NCBI GenBank assembly: GCA_020428005.1
Contig: JAGQNP010000006.1
Location: 1-35,255 of the forward strand
DNA from: Candidatus Saccharimonadota bacterium
GTDB taxonomy: Bacteria; Patescibacteriota; Saccharimonadia; Saccharimonadales; JACQNP01
DNA length: 35,255 bases
Direction: 5' to 3'
Each line of letters opens with the position of its first letter. Positions within the stretch are counted from its first letter, which is position 1. This document shows, piece by piece, positions 907-8,755 of this stretch. A program made the translations under genes and the position numbers. Below the pieces are notes generated by a model. It was given only the letters and a program-made list of their open reading frames with translations, did no database searches and had not been told where the DNA came from.

Positions 907-1371
907 ATGGGTCACATTCACGAGAAAATTGACTTCACAGTTGCACCAGTAATAATTCATCCTGATAAGGACAAAGTTCTATTAGTGCATCATCCACGAT
1001 ATAAAAAGTGGCTTTGCATTGGTGGCCATATAGAACTTGACGAGAATCCAGATCAAGCTCTAATGAGGGAGATCGAGGAAGAATGTGGGTTGGAAGTTAA
1101 AGTTCTTAGCGATAAACCTGATGTCAAGTGTGAAACTTCAGAGATTCTATGGCGACCGAGGTTTGTAGATATTCACGATGCGAATAGCCCTCATAGGCAT
1201 ATAGGAATGGTATACTTCTGCCTAGCAAAAACAGAAAACTTTATACTTTCTGATGAACACGAAGAGATGAGATGGTTTACGCTTATCGAACTCGAAGCGC
1301 TGGGTGATAAAGCCCCAAAACATGTATTATATTATTGTAGAGTTGCGTTAGACGAGGTAAAGAATGACTGA
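907..1371 (+). CDS. Nudix hydrolase
   Basis: A 154-aa protein with a complete Nudix box at residues 40-62: G40, five residues, E46, seven residues, then REIEEECGL (54-62). This matches GX5EX7REUXEEXGU. The box binds the metal and hydrolyses a nucleoside diphosphate linked to another moiety. The substrate cannot be read from sequence; candidates are oxidised nucleotides, ADP-ribose or diadenosine polyphosphates. The gene starts 8 nt after the glutaredoxin stop and its last 8 nt overlap the start of trxB, so it is surely co-transcribed and probably translationally coupled. Its place among redox genes would fit a nucleotide-sanitising role, which is inference. Confidence 0.92.
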   Translation: MGHIHEKIDFTVAPVIIHPDKDKVLLVHHPRYKKWLCIGGHIELDENPDQALMREIEEECGLEVKVLSDKPDVKCETSEILWRPRFVDIHDANSPHRHIGMVYFCLAKTENFILSDEHEEMRWFTLIELEALGDKAPKHVLYYCRVALDEVKND

Positions 1372-2287
1372 TAAAAAAGTTCACGAAGTTGTCATGATAG
1401 GAGCTGGTCCTGCCGCTTTAACGGCAGCAATTTATACAACACGTGAAGATATTGATACTGTTATATACGAAAAGGGAGTCATTGGAGGACTAGCTGCAAT
1501 TACGGATTGGGTTGATAATTATCCAGGATTTGCGGATGGGATAGCTGGTTTAGAGTTAGCAGAAAACCTCCAGAAGCAGGCTGAAAGGTTTGGTGCAAAG
1601 ATTGAACTTGGCGAGGTGTTGTCTGTCAAAGATGAAGGTAAATATAAAAAACTTGAAACAACTGATGGAGAAATATACGCCAAGGCTGTTTTAGTTGCAA
1701 CTGGTAGCGATTATAAGAAGTTGGGTATCCCTGGCGAGCAAGAATACTACGCTCGAGGAGTACATTATTGTGCAACTTGTGATGGAGCATTCTATCGCGA
1801 GAAAGATCTTGTTGTTGTTGGTGGAGGAAATTCTGCTGTGCAGGAGGCATTATTCTTAACTAAGTTTGCGTCAAAAATTGATTTGCTTGTACGTAGTGAG
1901 CTAAGAGCCTCAGAAGTGCTGATAAATGAGCTTAAGAAAAACGAAAAGATTACCATTCACTTGAATACAACAACAAATGAAATAGTTGGTAAAGATAATA
2001 AGGTTATAAAAGTTATCGGCACTAAGAACGCTAAAAATATAGAATTTCCTACCGATGGGGTATTTGTATTCATTGGTTTATTACCTAATACTAAGTTTCT
2101 CGAAGGGTCTGACATCGATCTCGATAAACAAGGATTGATAATAACAGACGATCATTTAATGACTAGTATGCCGGGCGTTTTTGCTGCAGGAGATGTTCGT
2201 TCGGGTGCAACTATGCAAATTGCAAGTGCGGCTGGCGAGGGTGCAACCGCTGCGCTAAGAATAAGAGAGCATCTAGAAAATTATTAA
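1364..2287 (+). CDS. trxB: Thioredoxin reductase-family flavoprotein
   Basis: A 307-aa protein, normal length for low-molecular-weight thioredoxin reductase. An N-terminal FAD Rossmann motif GAGPAA (13-18) is followed by the redox-active C136-A-T-C139, a second dinucleotide motif GGGNSA (153-158) and the C-terminal FAD motif with AAGDVR. It should pass electrons via FAD to thioredoxin or to the nearby glutaredoxin. The usual NADPH 2'-phosphate motif HRRxxxR is absent: the equivalent stretch reads LLVRSELRAS (174-183), without the His and with only one of the two paired Arg. Cofactor use may therefore be NADH or another donor. It overlaps the Nudix gene by 8 nt, and marR follows after 14 nt. 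Confidence 0.93.
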   Translation: MTDKKVHEVVMIGAGPAALTAAIYTTREDIDTVIYEKGVIGGLAAITDWVDNYPGFADGIAGLELAENLQKQAERFGAKIELGEVLSVKDEGKYKKLETTDGEIYAKAVLVATGSDYKKLGIPGEQEYYARGVHYCATCDGAFYREKDLVVVGGGNSAVQEALFLTKFASKIDLLVRSELRASEVLINELKKNEKITIHLNTTTNEIVGKDNKVIKVIGTKNAKNIEFPTDGVFVFIGLLPNTKFLEGSDIDLDKQGLIITDDHLMTSMPGVFAAGDVRSGATMQIASAAGEGATAALRIREHLENY

Positions 2288-2301: not shown

Positions 2302-2808
2302 ATGGCCATCAAGGTTCCAATAAGGTTTCGAGGTGATAAATCAAAAACTGGACTCGAAGCGGAACGTATATTTAATATTGCTGAGTGGCAAAAGCTCCAA
2401 GATAGTGTCGCAAATGCACACAGAGTTATTATGGCTAAAGCGTTGGAAAATTTTGAACTTTTGCCAGTCGAGTGGTTATTTATGAAAAATCTATCTGAGG
2501 ACAAACTTGAAAATAATACACTAACCTACATATCTGAAGCTTTAAGCATGAATCTTCCACAGGCTACTTTGCTTTGTAGTAGAATGATAAAAAAAGGACT
2601 TATACGAAAAAAAACTTCTCAAAAGGACAGACGAGTTAAATATTTGCATTGTACACGTAAAGGACAAAAATTACTTTACGAAGGCGAGCAGTCTATACAG
2701 CATGCGATGAGGTACTGGCTATTCGATCTTACAGATATTGAAATAGAGCAGTACGTAAGAATATTGAAAAAAATAAACGGATTCGATATCCCTATAACGT
2801 TTAATTAA
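2302..2808 (+). CDS. MarR-family winged-helix transcriptional regulator
   Basis: A 168-aa protein. The central part (about 75-140) has a helix-turn-helix pattern followed by a wing with QKDRRVKYLHCTRKGQKLL, the DxR hairpin and TxKG signature of MarR proteins. The N-terminal and C-terminal helices would form the dimer interface. MarR proteins usually repress nearby genes and release DNA on binding a small ligand or on thiol oxidation. It is the last gene of the FKBP-grx-nudix-trxB run, with an AAAGGA ribosome site before the ATG. Control of this redox run is plausible but inferred; no operator was identified. Its 3' end overlaps the convergent flavoprotein gene by 8 nt. Confidence 0.82.
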   Translation: MAIKVPIRFRGDKSKTGLEAERIFNIAEWQKLQDSVANAHRVIMAKALENFELLPVEWLFMKNLSEDKLENNTLTYISEALSMNLPQATLLCSRMIKKGLIRKKTSQKDRRVKYLHCTRKGQKLLYEGEQSIQHAMRYWLFDLTDIEIEQYVRILKKINGFDIPITFN

Positions 2809-3481
2809 TTGGATATCCTGGAAAGTAGTCACATACAGTATTTTGTTCTGGGTATCCCCTACTAACAATTTGATCTCTAATGGTTTCAACCACTTCCTCT
2901 GGTCCTGAAATATAAACATATGCTTTTTGCTCTGCAGAAAGATCGATAACTGAATTTATGGAGAACTCCTTATTATCCGATACAATAGGATGATAGCTAC
3001 ATCCTACATAATTTGTAAAAATATCATCAAAAACTAAGTCACTTCTGTTCTTAACAATATGTATTAGAGTAATGCTTCTTAATTGCTTCTCATCGACCAA
3101 ATACTTCACCATACTTCTAAAGGGGGTTATACCAATGCCTGCTGCTACGAATACCAAAGGTATAACCTTGCTTTTTGGTAATACAAAATCACCCATTGCC
3201 TGACTAATATTGACAGCTGAGCCAATTTTATAATCAGAGAGCGCCTTCTTGTAGTCGCTAAGATTTTCATCAGTGATACGAGTTGTGATCGAAAGATAAT
3301 CTTCCGATGGTGATGACGAAAGAGTGAACCAGCGTTTGCCAAGGTCTTGACTACTCTTGGACAAGTTAATACTCAGTTCAATAAATTGCCCAGCTTGATA
3401 ATCCAGTGTGGTGTTTTTTTCGAAAAAATATGTCCAAATATTCGAAGACTCGTGTTTTTTTCTTATTAATTTAGCATTCAT
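2801..3481 (-). CDS. FAD-dependent ferredoxin/flavodoxin reductase-like oxidoreductase
   Basis: A 226-aa protein of the ferredoxin-NADP reductase superfamily. It has an FAD-binding barrel with R50-W-F-T-L-S-S, an NAD(P)-binding domain with AAGIGITPFRSM (113-124), and a C-terminal CDYFPGY tail typical of short soluble members. No iron-sulfur Cys cluster is fused to it. It should shuttle electrons between NAD(P)H and an unknown one-electron carrier or flavin. Its ATG overlaps the restored stop codon of the upstream phosphodiesterase gene (TAATG), so the two were built as one operon and probably coupled in translation. Confidence 0.88.
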   Translation of the reverse strand: MNAKLIRKKHESSNIWTYFFEKNTTLDYQAGQFIELSINLSKSSQDLGKRWFTLSSSPSEDYLSITTRITDENLSDYKKALSDYKIGSAVNISQAMGDFVLPKSKVIPLVFVAAGIGITPFRSMVKYLVDEKQLRSITLIHIVKNRSDLVFDDIFTNYVGCSYHPIVSDNKEFSINSVIDLSAEQKAYVYISGPEEVVETIRDQIVSRGYPEQNTVCDYFPGYPIN

Positions 3482-4163
3482 TAGTTTATCTTGTCGTATG
3501 TATGTTTTATGAATCTTTCTGGATAATCGGTGCAGATAGTAATATTGGGGTAAATGGTGCCCAGGATATTTCCGATTAACCTATTATTGATGGTGTATAC
3601 ATATAATGAGAGTCCGTAACGGCGACAAAGCAAATATGTTAATGGATTGAGCAGCCAGTAATTTAGACCTATTCCGTCAAGTTTCTGACTTTTTGCAAAT
3701 TGGATTATGTCTATTGGTTTAGTTCTTTCGAGTCCGAATATTCCGGTACCTTGGATCGTAGCAATTTTAGTTCATTGTGACGAAAAGAAGCTATCGCAAT
3801 ATCTCGATCTTTATGTTTTTTGAGAAGTTTTGTTAGTTCATCTACGCAACCATCGGATTTGATTTCTATTACTAGAGGCACCCCTTCTGTTGCATTAATA
3901 ACTTGCTTTAAGGTTGGAACCACTGATTGCGCATCAATTAGACATATTTTCTGAATATCCTTGAGACTGCTATTTTTTATTGAAATACTTTGATTACTAA
4001 TACGTCGCAAGTCATTATCGTGTACAACAACCAATTCACCATCGGCAGTTTTGTGAATATCTAATTCAATAAAATCAACCCCAAGCAGCTTGGCCATTTC
4101 AAAGCTATTGAGTGTGTTTTCTAGTGCCAGCCCGGCAGCACCGCGGTGCCCCATTACTTTCAT
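3481..4163 (-). pseudogene. Glycerophosphodiester phosphodiesterase gene with a 1-nt frameshift
   Basis: The 5' part encodes 150 aa with the GDPD catalytic set: H6-R7-G, E15-N-T17, E33-x-D35, H48-D49 and E100-x-K102. The family hydrolyses glycerophosphodiesters to glycerol-3-phosphate and an alcohol. This frame ends at 3711, at about two thirds of the normal length. The missing C-terminal part is intact in the -1 frame from about 3740 down to a TAA at 3481-3483, encoding IFGLERTKPIDIIQFAKSQK, then the LDGIGLNYWLLNP region, and ending in CTDYPERF. Restoring one base near 3736-3746 would give about 227 aa, normal for the family, ending exactly at the start codon of the next gene. No slippery heptamer is seen there. 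The cause is a sequencing error or a recent mutation. Confidence 0.85.
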
Positions 4164-4199
4164 ATACTCAAACTAGTGTACAATAAATGGTGAAAACAA
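4164..4199. promoter_or_regulatory. Overlapping divergent -10 elements for GDPD and ppa
   Basis: On the plus strand TACAAT at 4179-4184 is preceded by TG. On the minus strand TACACT (plus 4180-4175), also preceded by TG, lies 11 nt before the GDPD ATG. The two share the palindromic core TGTACA, so polymerase could bind only one at a time. The plus-strand start would fall near 4191, downstream of the in-frame ATG at 4187. This supports the ppa start at 4211. Confidence 0.6.
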
Positions 4200-4210
4200 A
4201 GGAGATATTA

Positions 4211-4741
4211 ATGGCAGATTACAATGTTATATTAAACACGGGTGATGTAAATGGGGGCGTGGTTAACACAGTTATCGAGATACCAAAATGGTCAACACTT
4301 AAGATAGAGTGGAATCGTGAATTGGCTGTGTTTCAGTTAGATAGAGTTGAGCCTAGTATTTTTGCTAAGCCAGTAAACTATGGATTTATTCCGCAGACTC
4401 TAGATGAGGATGGTGATGAGCTAGACACTCTAGTGATAACGAATGAACCAATACCTACTGGTGTTTTTCTTGAGGCAAGGATTATAGGGGTATTGAATTT
4501 TGAAGATGATGGTGAGATGGACCACAAAATCATATGCGTTCCAGAGGATGACCGCAACACAGGAGATCAGATAAACAGCATTGAGGAACTTCATGATCAA
4601 TGGAAGCTAAAGATCGAACATCACTTCAACCATTACAAAGACCTAAAAAAACCAGGTACCACTAAAGTATTAGGTTGGGGTGATACGGATGATGCCAAAA
4701 AGATAATAAAAGAGTGTCAGGATCGATGGAATAAAAAGTAA
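4211..4741 (+). CDS. ppa: Inorganic pyrophosphatase (family I)
   Basis: A 176-aa soluble pyrophosphatase, the usual family I length. It carries the signature DGDELD followed by TLVI, plus the family regions EWNRELAVFQLDR, YGFIP and the C-terminal HFNHYKDLKK. It hydrolyses PPi to two phosphates in the cytoplasm and pulls nucleotide polymerisation and sugar activation (for example GalU) forward. An in-frame ATG at 4187 exists. The ATG at 4211 is preferred because AAAGGAG (4198-4204) sits 6 nt upstream of it and because the -10 element at 4179-4184 would start transcription after 4187. It stands as a single gene, with gap having its own promoter. Confidence 0.94.
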   Translation: MADYNVILNTGDVNGGVVNTVIEIPKWSTLKIEWNRELAVFQLDRVEPSIFAKPVNYGFIPQTLDEDGDELDTLVITNEPIPTGVFLEARIIGVLNFEDDGEMDHKIICVPEDDRNTGDQINSIEELHDQWKLKIEHHFNHYKDLKKPGTTKVLGWGDTDDAKKIIKECQDRWNKK

Positions 4742-6921: not shown

Positions 6922-7785
6922 ATGGTTAAGAGTAAGACTTACTCGATCGAAGAACTCGAGCTGAAGGCCGACGACATTCGTCAAGACATCATAAGAATGC
7001 TTGAGCATGTTGGTAGTGGACATAGTGCTGGTCCACTTGGCCTGGCCGATATATTTACAGCTCTCTACTTCGGGATCTTAAAACACGATTTTACAAAACC
7101 AAATTGGGATCAAAGGGACATATTGCTTTTGAGTAACGGACACTGTGCGCCAGTACTTTATGCAACTATGGCAAATGCTGGTTATTTTGAGAAGAAGGAG
7201 CTACTTACACTTAGGCAATTTGGTTCCCGTTTGCAGGGTCATCCAGAAAGAACGAAGTTACCCGGTCTTGAGAGTACCAGCGGCCCGCTAGGTTGCGGAT
7301 TAAGTCAGGGTTGCGGTATGGCGCTTGCTATGAATATGAACAAAGACACACACCGCTGGGTTTACGTAGTAACTGGTGATGGTGAATTAGACGAAGGTAA
7401 TATTTGGGAAGCAGCTATGTTAGCTGGTAAGTATAAACTTGGCAACCTCATTGCAATTATAGATAGAAACAATATTCAAATAGATGGGCCAACAGAAGCA
7501 GTCATGCCGCTCGAAGACCTTAGTGATAAATGGGAATCTTTTGGATGGCATGTTATAGAAATTGATGGCAACAATATAGAAGCTGTAATAGACGCTTCTG
7601 CCATGGCGAGAGCGATAACTGAAAAACCAACAGCAATAATTGCACATACAGTACCAGGAAAAGGTGTTGACTTTATGGAATATGATTTTACATGGCACGG
7701 TAAACCCCCAGACCATGAGCAAGCCAAGAAAGCCCTAAATGAATTAAGGACTCTCAAGGGAAAGATTCGGAGCGAACATGAATAG
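6922..7785 (+). CDS. tkt: Transketolase, N-terminal (TPP-binding) subunit
   Basis: A 287-aa protein matching the N-terminal half of transketolase. It has GHSAGPLGLADI near the start, the TPP/Mg signature GDGELDEGNIWEAAM followed by IDRNN, and a histidine-containing HGKPPD near the end. The other half is a separate gene starting 8 nt before this one ends, as in archaeal and many CPR two-subunit transketolases. Together they move two-carbon units between ketose and aldose phosphates. No ribosome-binding site precedes the ATG; a perfect extended -10 element 10 nt upstream suggests nearly leaderless translation. Confidence 0.94.
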   Translation: MVKSKTYSIEELELKADDIRQDIIRMLEHVGSGHSAGPLGLADIFTALYFGILKHDFTKPNWDQRDILLLSNGHCAPVLYATMANAGYFEKKELLTLRQFGSRLQGHPERTKLPGLESTSGPLGCGLSQGCGMALAMNMNKDTHRWVYVVTGDGELDEGNIWEAAMLAGKYKLGNLIAIIDRNNIQIDGPTEAVMPLEDLSDKWESFGWHVIEIDGNNIEAVIDASAMARAITEKPTAIIAHTVPGKGVDFMEYDFTWHGKPPDHEQAKKALNELRTLKGKIRSEHE

Positions 7786-8755
7786 TCTGCATATTGTGGA
7801 AGATGTTCTAGCAAAAGATATAATGACAGAACCAAATCGAAAGGGATTTGGTAAGGGGCTATTAGATGCGGGCAAGGCAAATGATCAAGTGGTTGCTGCT
7901 TGCGCAGATCTAACAGAGTCAACACAGATGCACTTGTTTAGAGAACAGTTCCCAGAACGCTTTATTGAAATTGGTATTGCAGAACAAAATCTGGTAACAG
8001 TCGGATCAGGTCTTGCTGCTATGGGCAAAATACCATTTGTTAGTAGCTACGCAGCATTTAGTCCTGGAAGAAACTGGGAGCAAATTAGAACAACAATATG
8101 TTTGAACGACCAGCCAGTTAAGATTGTTGGTTCACACACAGGTTTGTATACGGGTATGGATGGCGCAACTCACCAGATGCTTGAAGACATTGCTCTAATG
8201 AGAGTTCTACCTAACATGGTGGTACTTGCCCCTGCTGATAGTCTAGAGGCGTACAGAATGACACTTGCTATGGCAGTCGATAAAAGGCCTAATTATATTC
8301 GTCTAGCAAGAGAGGCAATACCTATAATTACAACAGAAAAAACACCTTTTGAAATAGGTAAGGCTTACATTTACACCAAAGGTAACGACATAACATTTGT
8401 AAGTACCGGAACAATGACATATCAAGCTATGGTTGCTGCGGAGCTGTTATACAAAGACGGTATTGATGTTGAGGTTATTCACTGCCCAACAATAAAGCCT
8501 CTAGACGCAGTTACGATCTTGCAAAGTGCTAGAAAGACTAACAGGATTATAACTATAGAGGAAGCTCAAATAAGCGGTGGTCTTGGTGGTGCTGTAGCAG
8601 AGTTATTAAGCGAAGAATATCCTACTCTTATTAAGAGGATAGGTTTAAGAGATAGTTTTGGTGAATCAGGAAAGCCAGATCAGCTACTTGAACATTTCGG
8701 ACTAACTTCCAAGCATATTATGCTTGCAGCACATAAAATTATGGACAATAATTAG
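7778..8755 (+). CDS. tkt: Transketolase, C-terminal subunit
   Basis: A 325-aa protein matching the pyrimidine-binding and C-terminal domains of transketolase. ERFIEIGIAEQNLVTVGSGL carries the glutamate that activates the TPP aminopyrimidine. ATHQMLEDIALMR and the C-terminal domain with IITIEEAQISGGLGG follow. It overlaps the N-subunit gene by 8 nt, with CGGAG just before the ATG, so equal production by coupling is likely. An alternative ATG at 7823 would remove 15 residues before conserved sequence begins. Split genes of this kind are also used by DXP-synthase-like proteins, but the neighbours favour transketolase. Confidence 0.93.
   Translation: MNSLHIVEDVLAKDIMTEPNRKGFGKGLLDAGKANDQVVAACADLTESTQMHLFREQFPERFIEIGIAEQNLVTVGSGLAAMGKIPFVSSYAAFSPGRNWEQIRTTICLNDQPVKIVGSHTGLYTGMDGATHQMLEDIALMRVLPNMVVLAPADSLEAYRMTLAMAVDKRPNYIRLAREAIPIITTEKTPFEIGKAYIYTKGNDITFVSTGTMTYQAMVAAELLYKDGIDVEVIHCPTIKPLDAVTILQSARKTNRIITIEEAQISGGLGGAVAELLSEEYPTLIKRIGLRDSFGESGKPDQLLEHFGLTSKHIMLAAHKIMDNN

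Follow-up and report, generated by a model that had tools for sequence, protein, structure and literature searches.

The closest described counterparts of the locus analyzed here are the bacterial glycerophosphodiester phosphodiesterases (GDPDs; PF03009). The N-terminal part of our gene shares with them the HR, EN, ExD, HD and ExK residues, whose role in these enzymes is catalytic, whereas the gene as a whole differs from them in being frame-broken, with a 150-aa product that ends before the C-terminal third. A recent pseudogene or a single-indel artefact likewise combines one frame break with an otherwise intact gene and intact relatives; in our case, however, there is no homopolymer at the best-supported site and no other break in the tested sequence. 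The downstream gene has the reductase domain of flavohemoproteins and the Fre/LuxG flavin reductases among its best NCBIfam matches, but it has no match to a globin domain and is paired with a GDPD. In the limited literature collection that we consulted, nothing was found on glycerophosphodiester phosphodiesterase in Saccharibacteria.

A GDPD gene in two reading frames

The window, i.e., the whole stretch of DNA analyzed (35,255 nucleotides of a contig from a Candidatus Saccharimonadota bacterium), carries on its reverse strand a GDPD gene whose parts lie in different frames:

3711..4163, (-), GDPD N-terminal part, a 150-aa open frame of which about residues 1-141 are homologous (Pfam)
3481..3741, (-), GDPD C-terminal part, in the -1 frame, ending at TAA 3483-3481 (relatives' matches, conserved columns)
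3735..3756, (-), site of the frame change, with most support at 3738-3744 (profile scores of joins)

Frame 0 runs from ATG 4163 to TAG 3713-3711, and the -1 frame has no stop between 3771 and its TAA. The N-terminal part matches the Pfam GDPD profile with E=2.6e-25 and 90.4 bits, above the gathering cut-off of 23.6, but over profile positions 1-106 of 244 only, while the C-terminal piece alone has no Pfam match at 0.001. All ten residues of HR(G), EN, ExD, HD and ExK are present in the N-terminal part (residues 6-7, 15-16, 33/35, 48-49 and 100/102), at columns shared by at least 27 of the 29 relatives that were read in detail. This gene is the only GDPD match in its genome (1,045,205 bases).

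With a profile built from the 29 relatives, the N-terminal part alone reaches 173.5 bits and the C-terminal part alone 114.6, and the two frames joined reach 294.8 bits at 3741, the best of the possible switch points scored. The best 14 switch points listed (292.2-294.8 bits) all fall within 3735-3756, with the top five at 3738-3744; the site named in the initial annotation, 3736-3746, lies inside this profile-supported range. Inspection of the sequence at 3735-3756 found no run of three or more equal bases.

The gene is unbroken in relatives

We compared the gene with 98 genomes of the order, our genome being the only one of its family in the comparison. The N-terminal part (one query, E≤0.001) was matched in 73 of them. 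Leaving our own row aside, the matches fill 78 rows, some of which are weak (E up to 5.4e-4); in every one of these the open frame is at least 180 aa long and no stop interrupts the match, compared with 153 aa in our own row. The GDPD matches at G080:C1:311666-312046 and G081:C12:5230-5709 lie within far longer frames (586 and 623 aa) of another architecture.

The N half was matched at 34 of 34 relatives' loci (L002-L035), including five distant loci from the scan of the genome collection (L031-L035) that served for this match only. At E≤1, the C half was matched at every order-level locus except L030 (28 of 29, L002-L030), each time without a change of frame relative to the N half; it had no match at the five distant loci. 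The two halves thus find their matches in a common set of relatives, where a single frame covers both, as expected of a GDPD gene split by a single-base frame change, which is how the initial annotation had read the locus, and the split-GDPD signal is far beyond chance. Its statement that the C-terminal third is preserved is borne out by these matches and by the conserved columns described below. From match start to stop, the gene is a single unbroken protein of 217-250 aa at all 29 order-level loci, whereas our own frame 0 ends after 150 aa without a complete barrel in one polypeptide. Comparison with close relatives, which had been proposed as a check, therefore gives an unbroken gene in 29 of the 29 read in detail. 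The nearest relative (G004) has an intact 238-aa GDPD, 56-60% identical depending on part and method, which covers PF03009 over profile positions 1-243 of 244 and also matches solved GDPDs, e.g., PDB 4oec and 1o1z; when the comparison was extended to 392 genomes of the order, our own among them, no closer relative appeared at E≤1e-25.

Programmed -1 recoding, by ribosomal frameshifting or transcriptional slippage, would give a short and a full-length product from such a gene, in agreement with the -1 direction of the shift and the constraint on both parts. However, the 29 relatives' loci show no frame break, and neither do the other 78 match rows, judged by open-frame length. Moreover, there is no XXXYYYZ heptamer within 3711-3776, the interval within which shifting by -1 would restore the frame, which accords with the earlier remark that no slippery site is present; the sole in-frame heptamer of the gene (3978) sits upstream of -1-frame stops, and the longest run in the overlap, AAAA at 3768-3765, lies beyond the best switch range. 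In a fold test of pseudoknot-free structures, the RNA from 3740 to 3640 was no more stable than shuffled sequences (z=0.29). We consider programmed recoding very improbable, and give just as little credence to a real, fixed break from which an unrecognized non-canonical recoding would still make full-length GDPD and set the translation of the coupled flavin reductase. More improbable still are two separate genes encoding a split enzyme that assembles from two chains: the conservation of both parts would suit it, but the C-terminal frame has no ATG, GTG or TTG until TTG 3633, which leaves 50 aa only, none of the 29 relatives is split, and a frame this short is absent from the 78 other match rows. 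On the start-codon, heptamer and RNA-fold evidence, both programmed frameshifting and the split enzyme were rejected.

Age and origin of the frame change

Constraint past the lesion, a test for a pseudogene, is not relaxed, and the C half is as conserved as in the relatives. The mean identity of our gene to the relatives is 0.426 in the C half and 0.400 in the N half (difference +0.025); across the 29 relatives this C-minus-N difference ranges from -0.2 to +0.045, with 19 below our own value. Of the columns kept in at least 24 of the 29 relatives, 32 lie in the N half, of which our gene retains 27, and 16 lie in the C half, all of them retained. The normal constraint on the C half implies that the lesion is recent or not real, an unrelaxed C half being expected if the lesion is very recent. 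The choice offered in the initial annotation, a very recent mutation or an assembly or sequencing error, named the right pair of alternatives.

We suggest, with a probability of roughly 0.55, that the frame changed in the organism, as a very recent inactivation; an error of assembly or strain mixing is slightly less probable. On this reading, a single-base change at about 3735-3756 would have disrupted the frame of a normal GDPD gene, the first of a GDPD-flavin reductase pair. Alternatively, an assembly or consensus error, or a minority or strain-mixture variant, could have entered a fragmented assembly while the organism's GDPD is intact; we put this at somewhat under even odds. Gene-fragmenting errors are described, e.g., for long-read assemblies (PMC12007338). 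An error is in line with the single lesion and unrelaxed C half, with the preserved TAATG stop-start overlap, with the intact gene in 29 of 29 relatives read in detail, and with the state of the assembly (100 contigs, 95.71% complete, 1.63% contaminated). Indeed, the lack of a second lesion, the kept overlap and the intact relatives fit an error equally well.

What counts against an error is the rest of the genome, along with the absence of a homopolymer from the best-supported site. We scanned 236,410 bases of it (the window plus 20 stretches) by homology, using as queries 1185 open frames of at least 90 aa from stretches of two relatives together with the 29 GDPD loci; at E≤1e-10, 93 intervals amounting to 75,367 bases were covered on either strand. 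The scan sees the genes shared with the sampled parts of the two relatives and with the GDPD loci, and it recovered the GDPD break itself; besides this one, no sense-strand frame break was found in the 93 intervals. There were 33 split rows, of which 29 are GDPD itself, from 28 relatives (G009 twice, at L003 and L123). One row outside the window (L048:12731-13187) was dropped as antisense of two ribosomal-protein genes, named by ORF reading, and three in the window (L002_-_1_440, L018_+_1_611 and L021_-_1_601) were dropped as antisense-ORF queries, judged by coordinates. A codon-usage Viterbi scan for frame breaks over the same 236,410 bases was rejected, as it failed to detect the GDPD break, already known, and cut the window into too many genes (65); it called 11 other unvalidated breaks, four of them in the window. 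With GDPD as the sole sense-strand break, the assembly is not generally indel-riddled, and the scarcity of indels together with the lack of a homopolymer at the site slightly favors a real change. Note that one error per 75 kb would also be unremarkable.

The GDPD-flavin reductase pair

The genes around the GDPD are the following:

2801..3481, (-), flavin reductase, FNR-like NAD(P)H oxidoreductase, 226 aa, intact (Pfam NAD_binding_1, 1.4e-7)
4187..4741, (+), inorganic pyrophosphatase, divergent, with a likely true start near 4211 (Pfam Pyrophosphatase, 8.4e-51)
1364..2287, (+), thioredoxin-reductase-like gene (TIGR01292, 333.9 bits, just under the cut-off of 343.45)
2302..2808, (+), MarR/SlyA-like regulator (Pfam MarR 1.8e-4 and NCBIfam SlyA 2.3e-9, both below cut-off)

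The GDPD stop TAA 3483-3481 and the flavoprotein ATG 3481-3479 share one base (TAATG); the overlap of the restored stop with this ATG, described in the initial annotation, thus consists of base 3481, common to both. The best NCBIfam matches of the flavin reductase include Hmp, NADH oxidoreductase, Fre and LuxG, all far below their curated cut-offs. The MarR/SlyA-like regulator is convergent with the flavoprotein gene. Rfam has no match in the window at gathering scores; a promoter scan found 14 candidates against 9.4 expected (sd 2.8), and a terminator scan 2 against 1.4 expected. Elsewhere in the window, transketolase consists of two overlapping genes, with the N-terminal part at 6922-7785 and the C-terminal part at 7778-8755.

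The flavin reductase is matched in 79 of the 98 relatives. In 31 of the 73 GDPD-positive relatives, a reductase match lies directly downstream on the same strand, with less than 500 bases between match ends; in G009 and G048 the reductase is 1.1 and 1.5 kb from the GDPD. Among the 29 loci read, the reductase is the next start found in 21, overlapping by four bases in 11 and, like our own pair, by one base in two. In the nearest relative the GDPD is flanked as here by the pyrophosphatase and the flavin reductase (L002 ORFs; the pyrophosphatase by sequence likeness). A GDPD followed by a Fre/Hmp-like flavin reductase is therefore a recurrent, often overlapping pair across the order.

The pair is not always kept. 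No GDPD match was found in 25 of the 98 relatives (one query, E≤0.001), some of whose genomes are incomplete. Four of these, chosen for their close flavin reductase, were examined (G010, G020, G049 and G070; 93, 96, 85 and 98% complete, respectively). By ORFs and Pfam, all four keep the reductase, with a thioredoxin-reductase-like gene near the flavoprotein as in our window, and the two are separated in G049 by a 193-aa gene that has no Pfam match. By ORF reading, a pyrophosphatase (Pfam) starts about 100 bases or less from the reductase start in G010, G049 and G070, and a different gene starts about 230 bases from it in G020. A tblastn search with the 29 relatives' GDPDs found no GDPD remnant at these loci (best E 4.2 at L058, 0.31 at L067, 0.15 at L071 and 0.59 at L076), and recovered the controls L002 and L022. 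A glutaredoxin gene is present in L058, L067 and L076.

Discussion

Our results indicate that this is an ordinary frame-broken gene, and nothing in them points to a new mechanism. With a real break, ribosomes would stop at TAG 3711, and the resulting 150-aa product would lack the part after 'IASF', which by GDPD anatomy we take to correspond roughly to the last three barrel strands (beta 6-8). Judging from the sequence, the truncated GDPD would presumably be inactive. The break may also weaken translational coupling with the flavoprotein gene. The reductase has no Shine-Dalgarno-like motif at its start; since the motif was found at 10 of the 26 window starts listed (with the pyrophosphatase start taken one base off), this suggests at most that the reductase depends on coupling.

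The GDPD seems to be dispensable. The families of G049 and G070 have members that do match GDPD, and the gene has therefore been gained or lost within families, so that a loss here would not be exceptional. Moreover, the absence of GDPD where the reductase stays suggests that the reductase is independent of it.

For annotation, the 150-aa frame with its missing C-terminal third should not be recorded as a short GDPD. The GDPD-flavin reductase pair that emerged across the order is a mildly useful by-product of this analysis.
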